Positions 2,613-29,951 of a stretch of DNA of 34,083 nucleotides are shown piece by piece (within the stretch, counting starts at the first letter, position 1; every line of letters starts with the position of its first letter). The position numbers were made by a program, and so were the translations under genes. Source of the stretch: an uncultured Monoglobus sp. GTDB taxonomy: Bacteria > Bacillota > Clostridia > Monoglobales > Monoglobaceae. The DNA lies in the NCBI GenBank assembly GCA_947624495.1, contig CANQKP010000006.1, forward strand, positions 1 through 34,083, in the 5' to 3' direction. A model generated the notes under the pieces. The model searched no databases. It was not told where the DNA came from and was given only the letters and a program-made list of their open reading frames with translations.

Positions 2613-3401
2613 TCACTTCGCGGGGAAGCTTCCCTCTTTTACTTCTTTTATATAGTCCGTAACGCCTGCTGTTATCGTTTTGCCGACCTCGGCGAACCGC
2701 TTTACGAACGACGGTACATAATCATCAAACATTCCGAGCATATCATGCAGCACCAGTACCTGCCCGTCGCAGTCCGGTCCCGCGCCAATGCCGATCGTGG
2801 GTACAGCAAGGCTCTCGGTGACTTTTTTTGCAAGAGCGCGGGGTATACATTCAAGAACGACGGCAAACGCTCCCGCCTCCTCCACTGCTTTTGCGTCGCG
2901 AAGCAGCTTTTCCGCCGCCGCGTCGGTCTTTGCCTGAATTCCAAATCCGCCGAGCTGATTAACGCTCTGGGGCGTAAGTCCAAGGTGTCCCACGACAGGT
3001 ATGCCGGCGTCGGTTATCGCCCGGATAACGTCAGAGATCTCCTCGCCGCCCTCAATTTTGACCGCCGCCGCGTTCCCTTCGGCGATAAGCGCGCCTGCGT
3101 TTCTGACCGCCTCGTAAACACCGAGCCGGCAGGACAAAAACGGCATATCCGCCACGACCATTGCCCGCTCGGCTCCGCGGGATACCGCCTTGGTGTGGTG
3201 TATCATGTCGCTCATGGTGACATGGGTGGTGTTGTCAAATCCGAGCATAACGTTGCCCAGCGAGTCGCCTACCAGTATCATATCAATTCCCGCTCTGTCA
3301 ACCAATTTAGCCATTGAGTAATCATAAGCGGTCAGCATGGAGATCTTTTCGCCGCCCTTCATCGCTCTTATGGTTTTTGTGGTAATTTTTTTGTTTGCCA
3401 T
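2613..3401 (-). CDS. panB: 3-methyl-2-oxobutanoate hydroxymethyltransferase
   Basis: PanB transfers a hydroxymethyl group from 5,10-methylene-THF to 2-oxoisovalerate, giving ketopantoate, the first committed pantothenate step. At 262 residues it has the normal length. The N-terminal [17 protein letters not shown] and [12 protein letters not shown] segments carry the metal-binding Asp46, and VVADMPF carries Asp85, corresponding to the two Mg-binding aspartates of the family; VVLECIP contains the catalytic Glu region. The ATG at 3401 follows AAAGGAG at good spacing. It heads the pan operon. Upstream lie a weak promoter, an intrinsic terminator and a structured stretch that may be a regulatory leader. 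Confidence 0.96.
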
Positions 3402-3452
3402 TCTCTTTCTCCTTTACAAATTATTTATCCCGCGCACGAGTTTCTTCATTAT

Positions 3453-3481
3453 ATTATAGTGCATATAAAATCAAAACTACA
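3453..3481 (-). promoter_or_regulatory. Possible proximal promoter of the pan operon
   Basis: On the minus strand TATAAT (3458-3453) lies about 50 bases upstream of panB, with a poor -35 (TGTAGT) 17 bases further up. A second overlapping TATAAT-like box follows. The -10 is good but the -35 is weak, so this is tentative. If real, it would make transcripts that bypass the upstream terminator. Confidence 0.4.
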
Positions 3482-3494
3482 TATTGTTGTGCGT

Positions 3495-3677
3495 ATAAAA
3501 ACAGGATACCCAATATGCGGTATCCTTACAGAGAACACAGAACCGTGGGCGCGCCGCAAATCACGGCGCCGCGGACGCGGCTTATAAATTTTTTAAAAAA
3601 TTCAGTCTCTGTTGGGAACCCAATCAAAGCTTTTGTCGTCATATATAGTAGATGATGACACCCGCCGATGTATGACA
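3495..3677 (-). ncRNA. Candidate structured RNA / pan operon leader
   Basis: This stretch of about 180 bases lies between a minus-strand promoter (TTGCAA-17-TATACT) and the terminator at 3496-3525 and codes for nothing recognisable. It is rich in inverted repeats: TGTCGTCAT/ATGATGACA (3634-3660, one non-Watson-Crick pair), TTGGG-AA-CCCAA (3612-3623), ACAGAGA/TCTCTGT enclosing 3528-3612, a GCCGCG/CGCGGC hairpin and CCGTG/CACGG. The position upstream of panBCD suggests a cis-regulatory leader; an independent small RNA is the other option. Caution: at two places the pairing is G-U on the plus strand but A-C on the minus strand, so the strand is uncertain. Confidence 0.35.
3496..3525 (-). terminator. 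Minus-strand intrinsic terminator or attenuator upstream of panB
   Basis: Read on the minus strand, GGATACC, an eight-base loop and GGTATCC form a perfect 7-bp stem followed by TGTTTTTATA. It stands about 95 bases upstream of the panB start and about 150 bases downstream of a good minus-strand promoter. It would therefore either end a short non-coding RNA or act as an attenuator in a pan leader. Confidence 0.65.
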
Positions 3678-3683
3678 AAATAG

Positions 3684-3712
3684 AGTATAACACACATTGA
3701 AATAAATTGCAA
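3684..3712 (-). promoter_or_regulatory. Minus-strand promoter of the pan leader or small RNA
   Basis: Minus-strand TTGCAA (3712-3707), 17-base spacer and TATACT (3689-3684) make a good SigA promoter with a start near 3677. It reads toward the terminator at 3496-3525 and then panB. Confidence 0.6.
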
Positions 3713-3721
3713 CAGTTTTTT

Positions 3722-3759
3722 GTTACATAAAGTTGCGGACAAGGTTACAAACAGTTACA
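3722..3759. repeat. GTTACA direct repeats upstream of the pyrG promoter
   Basis: GTTACA occurs at 3722, 3744 and 3754, the last two exactly 10 bases apart (one helical turn), just upstream of the pyrG -35 box. Spacing and position would suit a regulator binding one face of the helix, but no regulator is identified and the A/T-rich context makes chance copies possible. Confidence 0.3.
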
Positions 3760-3786
3760 AAATTCAAACAATTTGGAGCAAACCCC

Positions 3787-3815
3787 TTGACATATGTCGT
3801 TTTAGGTATTAAAAT
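3787..3815 (+). promoter_or_regulatory. pyrG promoter
   Basis: TTGACA (3787-3792), 17-base spacer, TAAAAT (3810-3815), with a start near 3822 and a leader of about 50 bases. The leader has no GGGC start and no terminator, so the reiterative-transcription attenuation known for Bacillus pyrG is not evident here. Confidence 0.75.
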
Positions 3816-3871
3816 ACAATAGTTAAAGTGTGTGACAAGCTTTAAATATAACTTGAACAGGGGGAATTTTT

Positions 3872-5494
3872 GTGGCTGTCAAATATATTTTCGTGACAGG
3901 CGGCGTTGTATCGGGTATAGGCAAAGGCATCACTGCCGCATCTCTCGGCCGTCTGCTTAAGACCAGAGGCCTCAGGGTGACGATCCAGAAATTCGACCCC
4001 TACATTAATATAGATCCGGGTACAATGAGTCCGTACCAGCACGGTGAGGTGTTCGTGACGGACGACGGAGCCGAAACGGATCTGGACCTTGGTCATTATG
4101 AAAGGTTTATCGACGAGAGTCTGACAAAAAACAGCAATATCACAACCGGCAAGGTGTATCACTCGGTTATAACCAAGGAGCGCCAGGGCGCGTACTTGGG
4201 CGGCACCGTTCAGGTTATTCCGCATATCACCGACGAGATAAAGCAGAAGATCTATGACGTCGGCGACGAGGGCGAGTCGGACGTTGTCATCACCGAGATC
4301 GGCGGAACCGTGGGCGATATCGAAAGCCAGCCGTTTCTTGAGGCGATAAGGCAGGTGGCAGGCGACAAGGGCAGACAGAACGTCATGTATATACACGTTA
4401 CGCTGGTCCCGTACCTGCGCACATCGGGTGAGCTTAAGTCAAAGCCTACCCAGCACAGCGTTAAGGAGCTTTTGAGCATCGGTATACAGCCCGATATGCT
4501 CATCTGCCGAAGCGAGGTCCCTCTTGAGGACTCGCAGAGAGACAAGATCGCTCTGTTCTGCAACGTTGCCAAGGACTGCGTTTTCCAGAACCTTAACTGT
4601 GACACTATCTATGATGTGCCGATCATGCTTGAGAACCAGAACCTTTCCGGCAAGGTCTGTGAGAGATTGGGGCTTGAAGCCGGAGAGCCGGACCTCACCG
4701 AATGGAACGGCATCATAAATAAGATAAACAGCCTTGACAAAAAAGTCAGGATTGCTCTGGTCGGCAAGTACGTTGCGCTGCACGACGCGTACCTGAGCGT
4801 TGCGGAGGCGCTGAGACACGGCGGCTATGACTGCGGAGCCGAGGTTGAGATCGACTGGATCGACGCCGAGAGCGTGAGCGACGACAATGCGGAGACGCTG
4901 CTCAGCGGCGCGGACGGCATACTGGTCCCCGGCGGATTTGGAGATCGTGGGATTGACGGAAAGATCGCGGCGATCAAGTACGCACGCAGGAACAAAAAGC
5001 CGTTTCTCGGAATTTGCCTTGGTATGCAGCTGGCGGTCGTGGAGTTTGCCAGAAACGTCGCGGGACTCAAAGGGGCGCACAGCTCCGAGCTTGACCCCGA
5101 CACGCCTTACCCGGTGATCGACCTGATGCCGGAGCAGAAGAATATATCCGATATGGGCGGCACCATGAGACTGGGCGCGTATCCGTGTACAATAAGAGAG
5201 AACAGCAGGTTCGCTGCCGAAGCCTACGGCGGAACCGACAAGATAAAAGAAAGACACCGGCACAGATACGAGATGAATAATGATTTCATAAAAACTCTGA
5301 CCGATATGGGACTTGTGATAGCGGGAACCTCGCCTGACAACAGACTGGTGGAGATCGTTGAGGTGAAGGACCATCCGTGGTTCGTGGGGGTCCAGTTCCA
5401 CCCGGAATTTAAATCCAGACCCAACAAACCGCACCCGTTATTTAAGCAGTTTATATATAATTCGCTACTTTGTTCACAAAAAACCATTAAATAA
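3872..5494 (+). CDS. pyrG: CTP synthase
   Basis: PyrG makes CTP from UTP with ATP and glutamine. The 540-residue protein has both domains: an N-terminal synthetase domain with [12 protein letters not shown] (P-loop) and the [13 protein letters not shown] segment, and a C-terminal class I glutamine amidotransferase with the nucleophile Cys382 in FLGICLGMQ and the GVQFHPEF motif supplying His510 and Glu512. The start is GTG at 3872, eight bases after CAGGGGG; no better start exists. It has its own promoter and stands alone, followed by the separately promoted SLH gene. The identification is certain. Confidence 0.98.
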
Positions 5495-5629: not shown

Positions 5630-5690
5630 AAGTAAATTAATTTTGTAAAAAAAATTAAAATTTTAATATTTTAAGGAGGATTTGAGACAT

Positions 5691-8600
5691 ATGAGAAATC
5701 TCAAAAAGGTGATCGCTTTAGTAGCAGTTTTTGCTATGCTCGTCAGCACAGTTGCTTTTGCGGCTACATTTGACGATGTTGCGGAGACTGACAACTACGC
5801 TACAGCGATCGAAACATTAAACCAGCTTGGCATTTTGACAGGCGACGACGAAAACAATGACGGCGTTATGAGTTTCCGTCCCAACGATACTATCACAAGA
5901 GCTGAGATCACAGCGATTGTTGCTAGAATTCAGGGCGTTACAGGCGCTGTTGGTCAGACCAATACAATCTTTACCGATGTTCCTTCAACACACTGGGCTT
6001 CCGGTTATATTGCGTCTGCTACACAGCAGGGCGTTGTTAACGGTTACGGAGACGGCACTTTCGGACCCGATGATAACGTACTGTATCAGGACGTTGTTAA
6101 GATGATCATGGAGACACTGGGTTACAAGAACTATGCTCTTGATAACGGCGGTTATCCTACAGGTTACATTCTCGCGGCTCAGAGACAGAACGTTCTTGTA
6201 GGCGTTCAGGGCGGCGCTGAAGGCACCGAGGCTACAAGAGGTCAGGTTGCTCAGATCACAAACAATGCGATCAAGGCTCCTATCATGGACAGACTTGCTT
6301 ACGGCGGCAATGGTCAGTATGTAATATATGACGGTACATGGCAGTCAAAGAAGACCTGCCTGAGCGAGTACCTCGGCATTACATACATGAGAGGCGACAT
6401 TATCGCTAACGCTGTAACAGACATGAGCGGTCCTCTTGCTATCGGCACAAAGAGAAACGACACAGTTAAGGTTGACATCGACGACCTTGACAACGTAATC
6501 AGCAATGTATATTATGAGGGCTACACATATGATCTGTATGTTGGCGACACAAACGCAGCTGATTATTTCGGATACAATGTTGATCTGTATGTAAGAAACG
6601 CAAATTCTGACACAGGCACAATCGTTTCTGTAGCTGAAGCAGCAGGCAGAAATACTACAATAAGCTTCACACTGGATCAGTACAGCTATTATGATCCTCA
6701 GTACGGCGATATCTACTATCAGAGATCAGAGACTGACAGAAGCGCTTCGAGACTCCGTCTCGCATCTGACTTCCTTACAGCATCAAACCCGAAGACTGTT
6801 GTTTATAACGGCATCGCAGGTTACTCTGTAGACGAGATCTTTGCTACAGAAGGCGCTAATGATAAGCCCGTATATCAGGATACAACAAACAGCGGTAGAG
6901 TTACACTTATCGACAACAACGAGCAGTCTGGTTACGACTTCGTAATCGTTGAGCTGGCTACAAGCGGTGTTGTTCAGGAGCTGTCTTCAAGAGGCGTTGT
7001 AAGCTTCAAGAACAATGTAGTAGGTGACAATCTTACACACAACAATATCAACAGAATTGAGTTTGCTTCATCGGATGTATATGTTAATATCACAAAGGAC
7101 GGTCAGCCCTATGATTACACTCAGCTCAAAGAGTGGGATGTTCTCTCAATCGTAGCTAACACAGACAATACACAGGTTTACAAGGTAGAAGTTCTTGACA
7201 GCGCTAACACAGCTATCACAGGCACAGTTTCGCGCAGAGCTACTTCCGCTACATCTTACAGCGGCAGCACTAACGCGTCAGGTTACGCTTACACGATCAA
7301 CGGTACAGAGTATGATCTGGCTTACGGCTGCTATCAGTACAACATGATCAACCCCGGCGTATCCGGCACATTCTATGTTGACCAGTTCGGTAAGATCGTT
7401 GCTTACAACAGAGACGGTTCTTCGAGCGGCACAAGTGATAACTACGCTTACATCCTGAACGTAAATGTTGACACATCAACATTCGGTGACACTGTTCCCA
7501 CAGTTCGTCTCCTGTTCAAGGACGGCACAGTTACAACAGCTCAGCTCGGAACAAGCGTAACAGTTTACAATCCGACAGTAGCAATGTCCGGAGACAATAC
7601 TCTTAAGGACTACATGACATTCCGTTATGATGATGCGAAATATGCTGACAATCTGCAGGATGTTCTGGTAGACGCTATGCTGGGCAGAGTTGTTACACTC
7701 AGCGCAAGCAACGGCATAATCAGATCAATGACGCTGCCTTACAACAACAACAAGATCGTTGACTCTTCAACAACTCTTGCTGAGTATGCAAACGGCACAG
7801 CTGATTATGACGAGGATACTCGCAGACTCAGCATCGCAGGCAAGCGCACATATGTTGATGATGATACACTCGTATTCTTCATCGGAGCGCCTGGCGACGA
7901 ATTCCAGTATGGTCAGGCAGCATCCGGTTCCAAGATGCCCGTTGAGGACTGCAAGGTTACAACCGGTGCTTCGCTCGCTACAATTTATCAGGTACCTTCG
8001 ATTGCTTACACAAACAACACAAACGACGGCAGTGCTGACGTAGTTGTTATGTATAACTCTGACATAGCTTCCAGCCCGAACACAGGCGTTGCGTTCATTA
8101 CATCTATCGGCGTATCGACTGTTAACGGCACAGACGTTCTGGCAGTTCAGTACTATCAGGACGGCGAGCTTAAGGACGCTGTAACAGATGACATCGTAGT
8201 AGGCGACCTCAACCAGAACACTCAGGTTGGTTCACTGTTCAAGTTCGGTATGACCGGTGACACTATTACATCGGCTACACCTTATCTGACATTTGACGGC
8301 GAGATCAGACCTCAGATCGCAAGAAACGGTCAGGACGTTCAGAAAGTCGGCGTTCCTTATGTAACATATATGCATACACCCAGAGAGAACAGCGGTGAGG
8401 ATGTATACTTCGGCGCAGTTCTGGCTAAGAACAACGGCAGACTGACAATCGCTCCTCTGGCTGTAAACAGCACAGTTCCGGATCTTGCGAACATCACTGA
8501 TGTAGCTCTGTCACGTGCTCAGGCTAACTACTATATCTATGATCCTACAAGAAGCAGCAGATCGAGATGCGGCATCGGTTCCTTCGGCGACATCATGGCT

Positions 8601-8777
8601 GACAACACTTTGACAGGCAATGGCGGTCAGGATACTGCTACAACCATTACCTTTAAAAACGGAACTTCAGCCGGTCTCACTCCTGCATGGGGTATGCTCG
8701 ACTATGTATTCGTAAGAATGTACGAGAACAAGGCTGATGTAGTTGACTACACAACTCAGCAGTATGATTATCGCTAA
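5691..8777 (+). CDS. Secreted S-layer homology (SLH) domain surface protein
   Basis: I start at the ATG at 5691, 11 bases after AAGGAGG; the TTG at 5682 in the track sits too close to that site. The 1028-residue product has a Sec signal peptide (about residues 1-24, cleavage near AFA-A), then three SLH units (about 26-82, 93-145 and 146-200, with FDDV, FTDV and TRAE/TRGQ hallmarks). SLH units bind secondary cell-wall polymer, so the protein is anchored non-covalently to the wall. The remaining 800 or so residues are Thr/Asn/Asp/Tyr-rich, without a domain I recognise and without a sortase motif or C-terminal membrane helix. Strong promoter, leader hairpin and biased codon use (ACA for Thr, AGA for Arg) suggest an abundant protein, perhaps the main S-layer subunit. 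A terminator follows. The glycosylation genes downstream may act on it. Confidence 0.9.
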   Translation: MRNLKKVIALVAVFAMLVSTVAFAATFDDVAETDNYATAIETLNQLGILTGDDENNDGVMSFRPNDTITRAEITAIVARIQGVTGAVGQTNTIFTDVPSTHWASGYIASATQQGVVNGYGDGTFGPDDNVLYQDVVKMIMETLGYKNYALDNGGYPTGYILAAQRQNVLVGVQGGAEGTEATRGQVAQITNNAIKAPIMDRLAYGGNGQYVIYDGTWQSKKTCLSEYLGITYMRGDIIANAVTDMSGPLAIGTKRNDTVKVDIDDLDNVISNVYYEGYTYDLYVGDTNAADYFGYNVDLYVRNANSDTGTIVSVAEAAGRNTTISFTLDQYSYYDPQYGDIYYQRSETDRSASRLRLASDFLTASNPKTVVYNGIAGYSVDEIFATEGANDKPVYQDTTNSGRVTLIDNNEQSGYDFVIVELATSGVVQELSSRGVVSFKNNVVGDNLTHNNINRIEFASSDVYVNITKDGQPYDYTQLKEWDVLSIVANTDNTQVYKVEVLDSANTAITGTVSRRATSATSYSGSTNASGYAYTINGTEYDLAYGCYQYNMINPGVSGTFYVDQFGKIVAYNRDGSSSGTSDNYAYILNVNVDTSTFGDTVPTVRLLFKDGTVTTAQLGTSVTVYNPTVAMSGDNTLKDYMTFRYDDAKYADNLQDVLVDAMLGRVVTLSASNGIIRSMTLPYNNNKIVDSSTTLAEYANGTADYDEDTRRLSIAGKRTYVDDDTLVFFIGAPGDEFQYGQAASGSKMPVEDCKVTTGASLATIYQVPSIAYTNNTNDGSADVVVMYNSDIASSPNTGVAFITSIGVSTVNGTDVLAVQYYQDGELKDAVTDDIVVGDLNQNTQVGSLFKFGMTGDTITSATPYLTFDGEIRPQIARNGQDVQKVGVPYVTYMHTPRENSGEDVYFGAVLAKNNGRLTIAPLAVNSTVPDLANITDVALSRAQANYYIYDPTRSSRSRCGIGSFGDIMADNTLTGNGGQDTATTITFKNGTSAGLTPAWGMLDYVFVRMYENKADVVDYTTQQYDYR

Positions 8778-24846: not shown

Positions 24847-26241
24847 CTATTTCCCCACGCAAAAGCGTGAAAACACTCTGTCTACAATTTCCTCCTGCAC
24901 CGTCTGTCCCGTGACCTCTCCGAGAGCCGACAGTGCGTCTGTCAAATCGATGTACAGCAGATCAAACGGCATATCCGTTCCCTCAAGAGCAAGTTCAAGC
25001 GCGTCTCTCGCCTTGATCAGCGAGTCTCTCTGCCGAATATTTGAAATATACACATCGCCGCCGTTTATTTTGCCGAGGGCAAATTTTTCGGCAATGCGAT
25101 CCTCCAAGGCTTCGATGCCCGCCGCCTCGCCGTTTGCCGGAGTTGCCGTCTCGATTATGTCAAGCGGGTCAAGTCCGGTCTTTTCGGATATTTCCACAGC
25201 GGTAAGCTTTGCCGCGCGGTCTGTCTTGTTAAGGGCGCATATTGCAGTTCTGCCCTTTATGGCTTCGATTATCCGAAGGTCCTCTTCGGTCAGAGCCTCG
25301 CTGCTGTCCGCCACGAATATACAGAGGTCAGCCTGCTCAATGCACTTAAGCGCGCGGCTTATGCCTATCTGCTCTATTTTGTCATCCGTCTCGGACCGTA
25401 TGCCGGCGGTGTCCAGCAGACGCATTGACGCGCCTTTTATGTGTATCATGTCCTCCACAGTGTCGCGGGTGGTGCCGGGTATATCGGTAACGATTGCCCG
25501 TTCGCTGCGGCTCAGCGCGTTCATCAGCGAGGATTTTCCAACATTCGGCTTGCCCACGATCGCCGCGGCAATGCCGTCGCGCAGGATCTTTCCGGTTTCA
25601 AACCCGTCGATCAGGCGGTTTATCTCATCAAGAGCGCCTTTTATCCGCGCCTCGACATCATCCGCGGAAAGCGGCTCCACCTCGTCCGGATAGTCAGCCG
25701 CGGCTGAGATATTGGCGGTGATTTCCAGTATAAGCTCCCTGGCGGCATTGATCTTGGCGCTCAGCGCGCCCAGCCGTGACTTTGCCGCGTTGGAAAGACC
25801 AAGTTCGCTGCTTGAGTCGATTATGTCCATAACCGCCTCTGCGCCTATCATGTCGGTTTTCCCGTTTACGAACGCCCTGCGCGTAAACTCGCCGGGATCC
25901 GCCAGGCGCACCCCTAAGCTGAGCAGTTCCTTAAGTATCATGTCGGCAGCAAAATACCCGCCGTGGCAGTTGATCTCCACAACGGTCTCACCTGTGTAGG
26001 AACGGGGCGCGCGCATGACCGAGACCAGTGCCTCGTCAAGCGCGGCGTCTTTATCGTTTATCCTGTGTATATCAGAAAGATAAAGCCGATGACTTTCAAG
26101 CTCTGCGACCGGTTTGCCGCATTTCGGCGCCACTATCCGAGCCGCCGCGCTTTCTGCCATATCTCCGCTCATGCGCACGATAGCCACGCCGCCTGATCCT
26201 ACGGGCGTGGCTATCGCGGCTATTGTGTCAAACATTTTCAT
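24847..26241 (-). CDS. mnmE: tRNA modification GTPase MnmE
   Basis: MnmE works with MnmG to place carboxymethylaminomethyl (or aminomethyl) groups on wobble U34 of certain tRNAs. The 464 residues show an N-terminal folate-binding domain (TIAAIATPVGSGGVAIVR, SYTGETVVEINCHGG), a G domain with GKPNVGKSS (230-238), DTAG and NKTD, and the C-terminal CxGK in its form CVGK (Cys461). The third Met codon (MFDTIAAI) is another possible start. It begins three bases after the dnaA stop. In most Bacillota mnmE follows jag on the opposite side of the origin, so its place here in the dnaA operon is unusual; mnmG is not in the window. Confidence 0.96.
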   Translation of the reverse strand: MKMFDTIAAIATPVGSGGVAIVRMSGDMAESAAARIVAPKCGKPVAELESHRLYLSDIHRINDKDAALDEALVSVMRAPRSYTGETVVEINCHGGYFAADMILKELLSLGVRLADPGEFTRRAFVNGKTDMIGAEAVMDIIDSSSELGLSNAAKSRLGALSAKINAARELILEITANISAAADYPDEVEPLSADDVEARIKGALDEINRLIDGFETGKILRDGIAAAIVGKPNVGKSSLMNALSRSERAIVTDIPGTTRDTVEDMIHIKGASMRLLDTAGIRSETDDKIEQIGISRALKCIEQADLCIFVADSSEALTEEDLRIIEAIKGRTAICALNKTDRAAKLTAVEISEKTGLDPLDIIETATPANGEAAGIEALEDRIAEKFALGKINGGDVYISNIRQRDSLIKARDALELALEGTDMPFDLLYIDLTDALSALGEVTGQTVQEEIVDRVFSRFCVGK

Positions 26242-28916: not shown

Positions 28917-29951
28917 TTGTCATATATAATGCTTGCGCTGGGCTGGGTCTTAAAGCTCATGTATACCATAACCAGCAACTATGGCGTGGCTATACTCTTG
29001 TTCACGCTTATCGTTAAATTAGTGCTGACGCCGCTTACGGTCAAGCAGCAGAAATCAATGCTAAAGACCCAAAAGCTTCAGCCGCTTCTTATGGAGATCC
29101 AGAAGAAGTACGCCAACGACAAGGAAAAGCTTAATCAGGAGACGATGAAGCTTTACCAGAAATATCAGATAAACCCGATGAGCGGCTGCCTGCCTATGTT
29201 TATCCAGCTGCCTATACTGTTCGCGCTCTATTATGTTGTGCGTCAGCCGATCATATACATCATGGGTGTTGACAGCTCGGATATATGGCGTATTGTCAGC
29301 GCGGTCGACGAATGGGGGCAGACTCATACCGACGCACTTAATCAGTTCTTGGCGGCGCTCAATATCGACTCGCTGAACATATTCCCGGAGAACGGGTTTA
29401 AAAACTTTGGTATGTATGAGATCCGTTTTGCCAAGCTGCTCTACGAATTTCCTGAAATAATGAACAGCAGTTTTATAACCGAGACCGGTGAAAGCTATGT
29501 GCTGATAGACTTTAACCTGCTTGGCATCGACCTGTCCCAGACTCCGAATTTAGGCAGTCTCCTGGGTCTTATTATGGGAAGAATACCCGACGGCGGTCTC
29601 ACGTGGGGAACCATAGGTCTGTGGCTTATCCCGCTGCTCGCCGGCGGAAGCTCGTACCTTACAAGCTACATCACTCAGAAAATGCAGCCGCCTCAGCCGG
29701 TGCAGAAGGATGAAAACGGCAACGAGAAACCCAACACAATGAAAACAATGATGATCATGATGCCGCTGTTCTCGATTTGGATAGCGTTCACACTTCCCGC
29801 AGCAATCGGTTTCTACTGGATCCTGAGCGGTATCATGCAGCTGCTTCAGCAGATTTTTATAAAAATGGTTGTTCATATCGATTTGACCGATGAGGAAGTA
29901 AAGGAGGAAATGGAAAATGCCGCGAAAAATAGAAAAAAACGCAAGAAGTAA
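28917..29951 (+). CDS. yidC: Membrane protein insertase YidC/Oxa1 family
   Basis: The 344-residue protein inserts and folds membrane proteins, alone or with SecYEG. The TTG at 28917 lies eight bases after AAGGAG and is a better start than the ATG at 28929. It lacks the lipoprotein signal common in Bacillus YidC and begins directly with a hydrophobic helix, as in many Clostridia. The conserved core is YGVAILLFTLIVKLVLTPLT, a basic coiled hairpin loop, and NPMSGCLPMFIQLPILFALYY. The groove residue that is Arg in Bacillus and E. coli appears to be Lys here. An insertion of about 75 residues lies between helices after residue 120. Its end overlaps khpB by 35 bases. Confidence 0.95.
   Translation: MSYIMLALGWVLKLMYTITSNYGVAILLFTLIVKLVLTPLTVKQQKSMLKTQKLQPLLMEIQKKYANDKEKLNQETMKLYQKYQINPMSGCLPMFIQLPILFALYYVVRQPIIYIMGVDSSDIWRIVSAVDEWGQTHTDALNQFLAALNIDSLNIFPENGFKNFGMYEIRFAKLLYEFPEIMNSSFITETGESYVLIDFNLLGIDLSQTPNLGSLLGLIMGRIPDGGLTWGTIGLWLIPLLAGGSSYLTSYITQKMQPPQPVQKDENGNEKPNTMKTMMIMMPLFSIWIAFTLPAAIGFYWILSGIMQLLQQIFIKMVVHIDLTDEEVKEEMENAAKNRKKRKK

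Follow-up and report, generated by a model that had tools for sequence, protein, structure and literature searches.

The window, by which we mean the whole 34,083-nt stretch of uncultured Monoglobus sp. DNA that was analysed, carries a panBCD operon on its minus strand, and the spacer between panB and pyrG contains a further unit on that strand (Table 1). Within positions 3495–3712, a promoter is followed by a structured sequence of ∼180 nt and an intrinsic terminator, with ∼150 bases lying between promoter and terminator. The −35 element (TTGCAA, 3712–3707) and the −10 element (TATACT, 3689–3684) are separated by a 17-nt spacer, and a TG dinucleotide stands ahead of the −10 element. The terminator stem reads AGGATACC GCATATTG GGTATCCT (3526–3503) and runs into GTTTTTATAC, so that the unit ends at ∼3498, 96 nt upstream of the panB start (3401). 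This arrangement, which had been proposed in a preliminary description of the DNA, was confirmed: promoter, structured stretch and terminator are all present on the minus strand upstream of panB and are conserved in the genus. Downstream of pyrG, a large SLH-domain (S-layer type) protein is encoded at 5682–8777. In the phage collection searched, no DNA similar to the leader stretch was found.

Table 1. Features of the panBCD leader region and neighboring genes (positions in the window)
Feature	Position	Strand	Remarks
panD, aspartate decarboxylase	1281–1619	−	
panC, pantoate-beta-alanine ligase	1622–2485	−	
panB, ketopantoate hydroxymethyltransferase	2613–3401	−	
Block TATAATATAATGAAGAAACTC, possible second panB promoter	3438–3458	−	conserved; weak −35; putative promoter role
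Intrinsic terminator	3498–3526	−	stem, then U run; conserved
Anti-pan segment UCUCUGU	3528–3534	−	reverse complement of ACAGAGA in the pan 3′ strand
Core, one pan-motif hairpin	3604–3631	−	AGCUUUG(A)UUGG-GUUC-CCAACAGAG(A)CU
5′ hairpin P1	3637–3677	−	sequence variable; outer arm pairs with the conserved UAUGAC; distinct from pan hairpins
Promoter TTGCAA-17-TATACT	3684–3712	−	sigma-70-type; kept in 12/12 genus genomes
Tandem TGTAAC repeats	3722–3759	−	possible response-regulator sites; just upstream of promoter; genus-conserved; putative function
pyrG	3872–5494	+	runs opposite to panB

The genus set comprised 12 genomes of Monoglobus (Clostridia), which are gut bacteria. The stretch was matched in all of them, with the exact core occurring once per genome. 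The genus alignment shows almost no variation in the promoter, in the terminator and in a block, UAUGACGACAAAAGCUUUGAUUGGGUUCCCAACAGAGACU, and variable sequence between them; in P1, the shape is conserved but the sequence is not. The core, AGCUUUG-A-UUGG-N4-CCAACARAG-A-CU, also precedes panB, in the same direction as the gene, in two further genera of the family (genomes G015 and G017). With up to three mismatches allowed, the 28-base core was absent from the other sampled genomes of the order outside the genus, except G015; a search with the loop left free also recovered it in a third genus, in G017, where it reads AGCUUUGAUUGG-ACGU-CCAACAGAGACU. Among 38 genomes of the family, panB was found in 16 and the element in 14 of these 16. 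The two exceptions are G013 and G021, in which panB adjoins pyrG and the core is absent from the spacer. The element was not found in the 22 family genomes without a panB match, most of which are incomplete and some of which were covered by the loop-free search. The panB–pyrG spacers of G021 and G013 have features of their own, namely a TATACT promoter that is conserved and, ahead of panB, a stretch common to both, TTAGACTGTT...TGGATTTTGTTCC. Two further candidates were dismissed. A core match in G092, from another family, sits within a coding frame, and a 34-base sequence on contig 6 of G011 (102013–102046; TATGACGACAAAA...GTTCCCAA), which closely resembles part of the conserved block and is located directly upstream of a feoB-like gene, is without the GCUUUGAUUGG...CCAACAGAGAC of the core and is probably due to chance.

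Regarding the TGTAAC repeats, their arrangement resembles the WalR box, TGTWAH-N5-TGTWAH (PMC4168254). The repeats at the leader have spacers of 4 and 6 bases rather than 5, so the link to WalR is no more than a lead. In four Monoglobus genomes TGTAAC pairs, counted with spacers of 4–6 bases and nearly all with 5, are enriched (8–11 versus 0–3 for the reversed pattern). Several of these pairs are located near cell-wall genes (those for a D-Ala-D-Ala carboxypeptidase, a G5/3D protein and an SLH amidase), as in a WalR-like regulon.

The preliminary description had named two known RNAs as candidates for the structured stretch, 6S RNA, on account of size, and the pan motif. An Rfam scan of the window gave no family at its cut-off, and a scan of 3380–3900 at E-values up to 10 gave four weak, unrelated matches only. 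The 6S RNA of this genome (RF00013) was located on contig 17 (23236–23427, 72.4 bits), with no 6S match at the leader. 6S RNA is thus ruled out here, and it is hardly conceivable that the stretch is another known Rfam RNA, a reading for which length is the one argument. The pan motif (RF01749) is found in 5′ UTRs of pan operons, and most, but not all, of its members are tandem (Weinberg et al. 2010, PMC2864571). A direct Rfam scan, as had been proposed for it, gave no match in this genome at the cut-off, because the hairpin is divergent and single. Unlike the known members, the element scores below the gathering cut-off (36.2 bits) with the full pan model everywhere, as this two-hairpin model penalizes a single hairpin. 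A pan model run on G013 gave no match. In G007, however, the pan model produced a single match genome-wide, which at 22.6 bits was below the cut-off but was full-length and lay exactly on the element.

The core forms a hairpin of the type AG-CUUUG-(A)-UUGG-N4-CCAA-CARAG-(A)-CU, with one bulged A per side. Both bulged A's were in register with the Rfam consensus in the G007 alignment, and both occupy the same stem places in 30 known pan hairpins. A single-hairpin model was built from the aligned 3′ hairpins of these 30 known pan loci, none of them from Monoglobaceae. It scored the core at 14.3 bits, the best value in the intergenic stretch (the next site scored 5.4 bits), and it found the relatives in G007, G008, G010, G017 and G015 at 11.7–19.5 bits. 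In the whole 34-kb window the core ranked third; the two higher-scoring sites, at 25146–25167 and 29532–29557 on the minus strand, are taken as chance matches. A genome-wide search, in which 150 of 782 candidates were scored, did not list the core, and the model is too weak to rank sites at that scale.

The 30 known hairpins were then aligned jointly with six Monoglobaceae cores (36 sequences in total). In this alignment 93.4% of the cells are paired and both sides have changed in 8 of the 11 pairs, a result that was equalled in none of 500 shuffles. The six columns that are invariant in the known members (G3, C4, A9 and the GAC after the stem) stay invariant when the Monoglobaceae cores are added, and at columns 2, 11 and 12, where C-G pairs are common, these cores have A-U, U-A and G-C. 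Differences from the known motif are also apparent. The upper stem is UUGG/CCAA instead of UCC/GGA. There is one pan hairpin in place of the usual tandem pair, accompanied by the unrelated, variable P1, which is without the bulged-A pattern. The lack of the tandem arrangement is not strictly disqualifying, as the authors of the motif describe most, not all, members as tandem. The gene context agrees with that of pan RNAs, the element preceding panBCD in the window and panB in G015 and G017. The pan identity of the hairpin is therefore argued from score, conservation, bulged A's and gene context taken together, and, judged by these sequence comparisons, the element belongs to the pan RNAs as a divergent member with one hairpin.

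Conservation of the core could also have a coding origin. A leader peptide (AUG ACG ACA AAA GCU UUG AUU GGG UUC CCA ACA GAG ACU), the translation of which would control the terminator, might be read from an AUG that is conserved in the genus, and its frame is open across the core. This reading was rejected as very improbable: the AUG is without a ribosome-binding site and is missing from G015, no synonymous changes are seen over the core, and G017 changes all four loop bases but none of the stem bases.

The 183-nt stretch is more stable than its own shuffles on both strands (z = −2.94 for minus and −2.77 for plus), so the strand is undecided by folding energy alone. It was assigned on other grounds. 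Promoter, core and terminator line up on the minus strand in 12/12 genomes, and a U-G pair in the core stem, shared by 29 of the 36 aligned pan hairpins, would become A-C on the opposite strand. Thus, the strand, which had been left open in the preliminary description, is settled as minus by conservation and the core U-G pair.

The complementarity between the pan 3′ strand and the anti-pan segment just ahead of the terminator stem points to a function for the leader. UCUCUG is invariant in the genus alignment, and in G007 and G001 the interaction is predicted to extend to ten pairs, CCAACAGAGA with UCUCUG(n)UUGG, so that two bases at the start of the terminator stem are included. In nine homologues the pan-closed fold and the long-range fold differ by 0 to 1.8 kcal/mol, and opening the base of the terminator costs about 2 to 5.5 kcal/mol relative to the minimum. 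The lowest-energy folds retain the terminator in both states, which counts against attenuation. An interaction between the core and the terminator loop was likewise considered and discarded, as it is broken by the changed loop of G007 (UUGCGU).

The known pan loci have a similar organization. A terminator is often found close behind the motif, often within 30 nt, compared with ∼80–140 nt after the hairpin in the genus, and here too the 3′ strand can pair with sequence at the downstream terminator. Across 27 known pan loci, pairing of the nine 3′-terminal bases of the motif was stronger with the downstream sequence of the same locus than with that of other loci (mean −9.15 versus −7.66 kcal/mol). 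None of 20000 cross-locus permutations was as good, a statistic in which kinship among the loci remains. When loci were tested singly for duplex formation against shuffles, most results were not significant, and significance was reached only in the across-locus permutation. This matched pairing between 3′ end and terminator suggests that pan RNAs in general act by attenuation.

Based on these observations, the element is best read as a pan-type transcription attenuator of panBCD, with the minus-strand transcript from ∼3677 serving as the 5′ leader, and we assign this reading a probability of roughly 0.7. The attenuator leader and pan motif suggested earlier are thus supported, and of the readings considered this one agrees best with the tests run (bulged A's, invariant bases, paired changes and context). 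The 3′ strand of the hairpin, CCAACAGAGA, would have two partners, its own hairpin or UCUCUG together with the first G's at the foot of the terminator. If an effector (a protein or a pathway metabolite) held the pan hairpin closed, the terminator could form freely, transcription would stop before panB, and panBCD would be off. In the free hairpin, the 3′ strand would pair downstream and extend into the terminator stem by its first two or three bases, so that more polymerase would pass and panBCD would be on. In this way the leader probably decides whether transcription stops before panBCD; that the RNA is made and controls read-through, as well as the direction of the switch and the effector, we infer. 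In protein-dependent attenuators, such as the PyrR-regulated pyr leader, a bound hairpin excludes the antiterminator and the terminator is therefore allowed. The proposed working of the pan leader resembles this mechanism, the binding protein being hypothetical here.

Transcription of panB may also start closer to the gene. The TATAATATAATGAAGAAACTC block after the terminator, which contains TATAAT, is conserved, and G017 carries an equivalent. Were it a promoter, either panB would have two promoters or the upstream RNA would be a separate transcript. In the latter case the element would be a stand-alone small RNA of ∼180 nt, acting in trans or binding a protein, and panB would be transcribed from its own promoter at ∼3448–3453. 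Because panB may have such a promoter, this alternative keeps some probability, and it agrees with the complete transcription unit and with the stability of the terminator in all predicted states. We nevertheless consider it unlikely, as hairpins of the pan type, to which the core belongs, are known from the 5′ UTRs of pan operons, and within this family the core was found only before panB; moreover, the putative second promoter has a poor −35 element and was missed by the promoter scan.

In summary, the element extends the pan RNA family to a lineage that is missed by the standard model, and the comparison shows which parts of the hairpin can vary and which cannot. It is also conceivable, but quite doubtful, that the single 28-nt pan hairpin and the anti-pan segment make up, by themselves, a minimal switch with direct sensing of pantothenate, CoA or an intermediate of the pathway. 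According to riboswitch reviews no CoA-type riboswitch is known, and such a switch, if real, would fill this gap. For the attenuator reading, a control model of this kind for pan RNAs was not found in the sources consulted, the supplement of the 2010 pan paper being outside that coverage. The pairing by which the pan 3′ end is matched to its terminator region in known loci, and which takes a second form here, offers a concrete, testable model for the control of vitamin B5 synthesis by pan RNAs.
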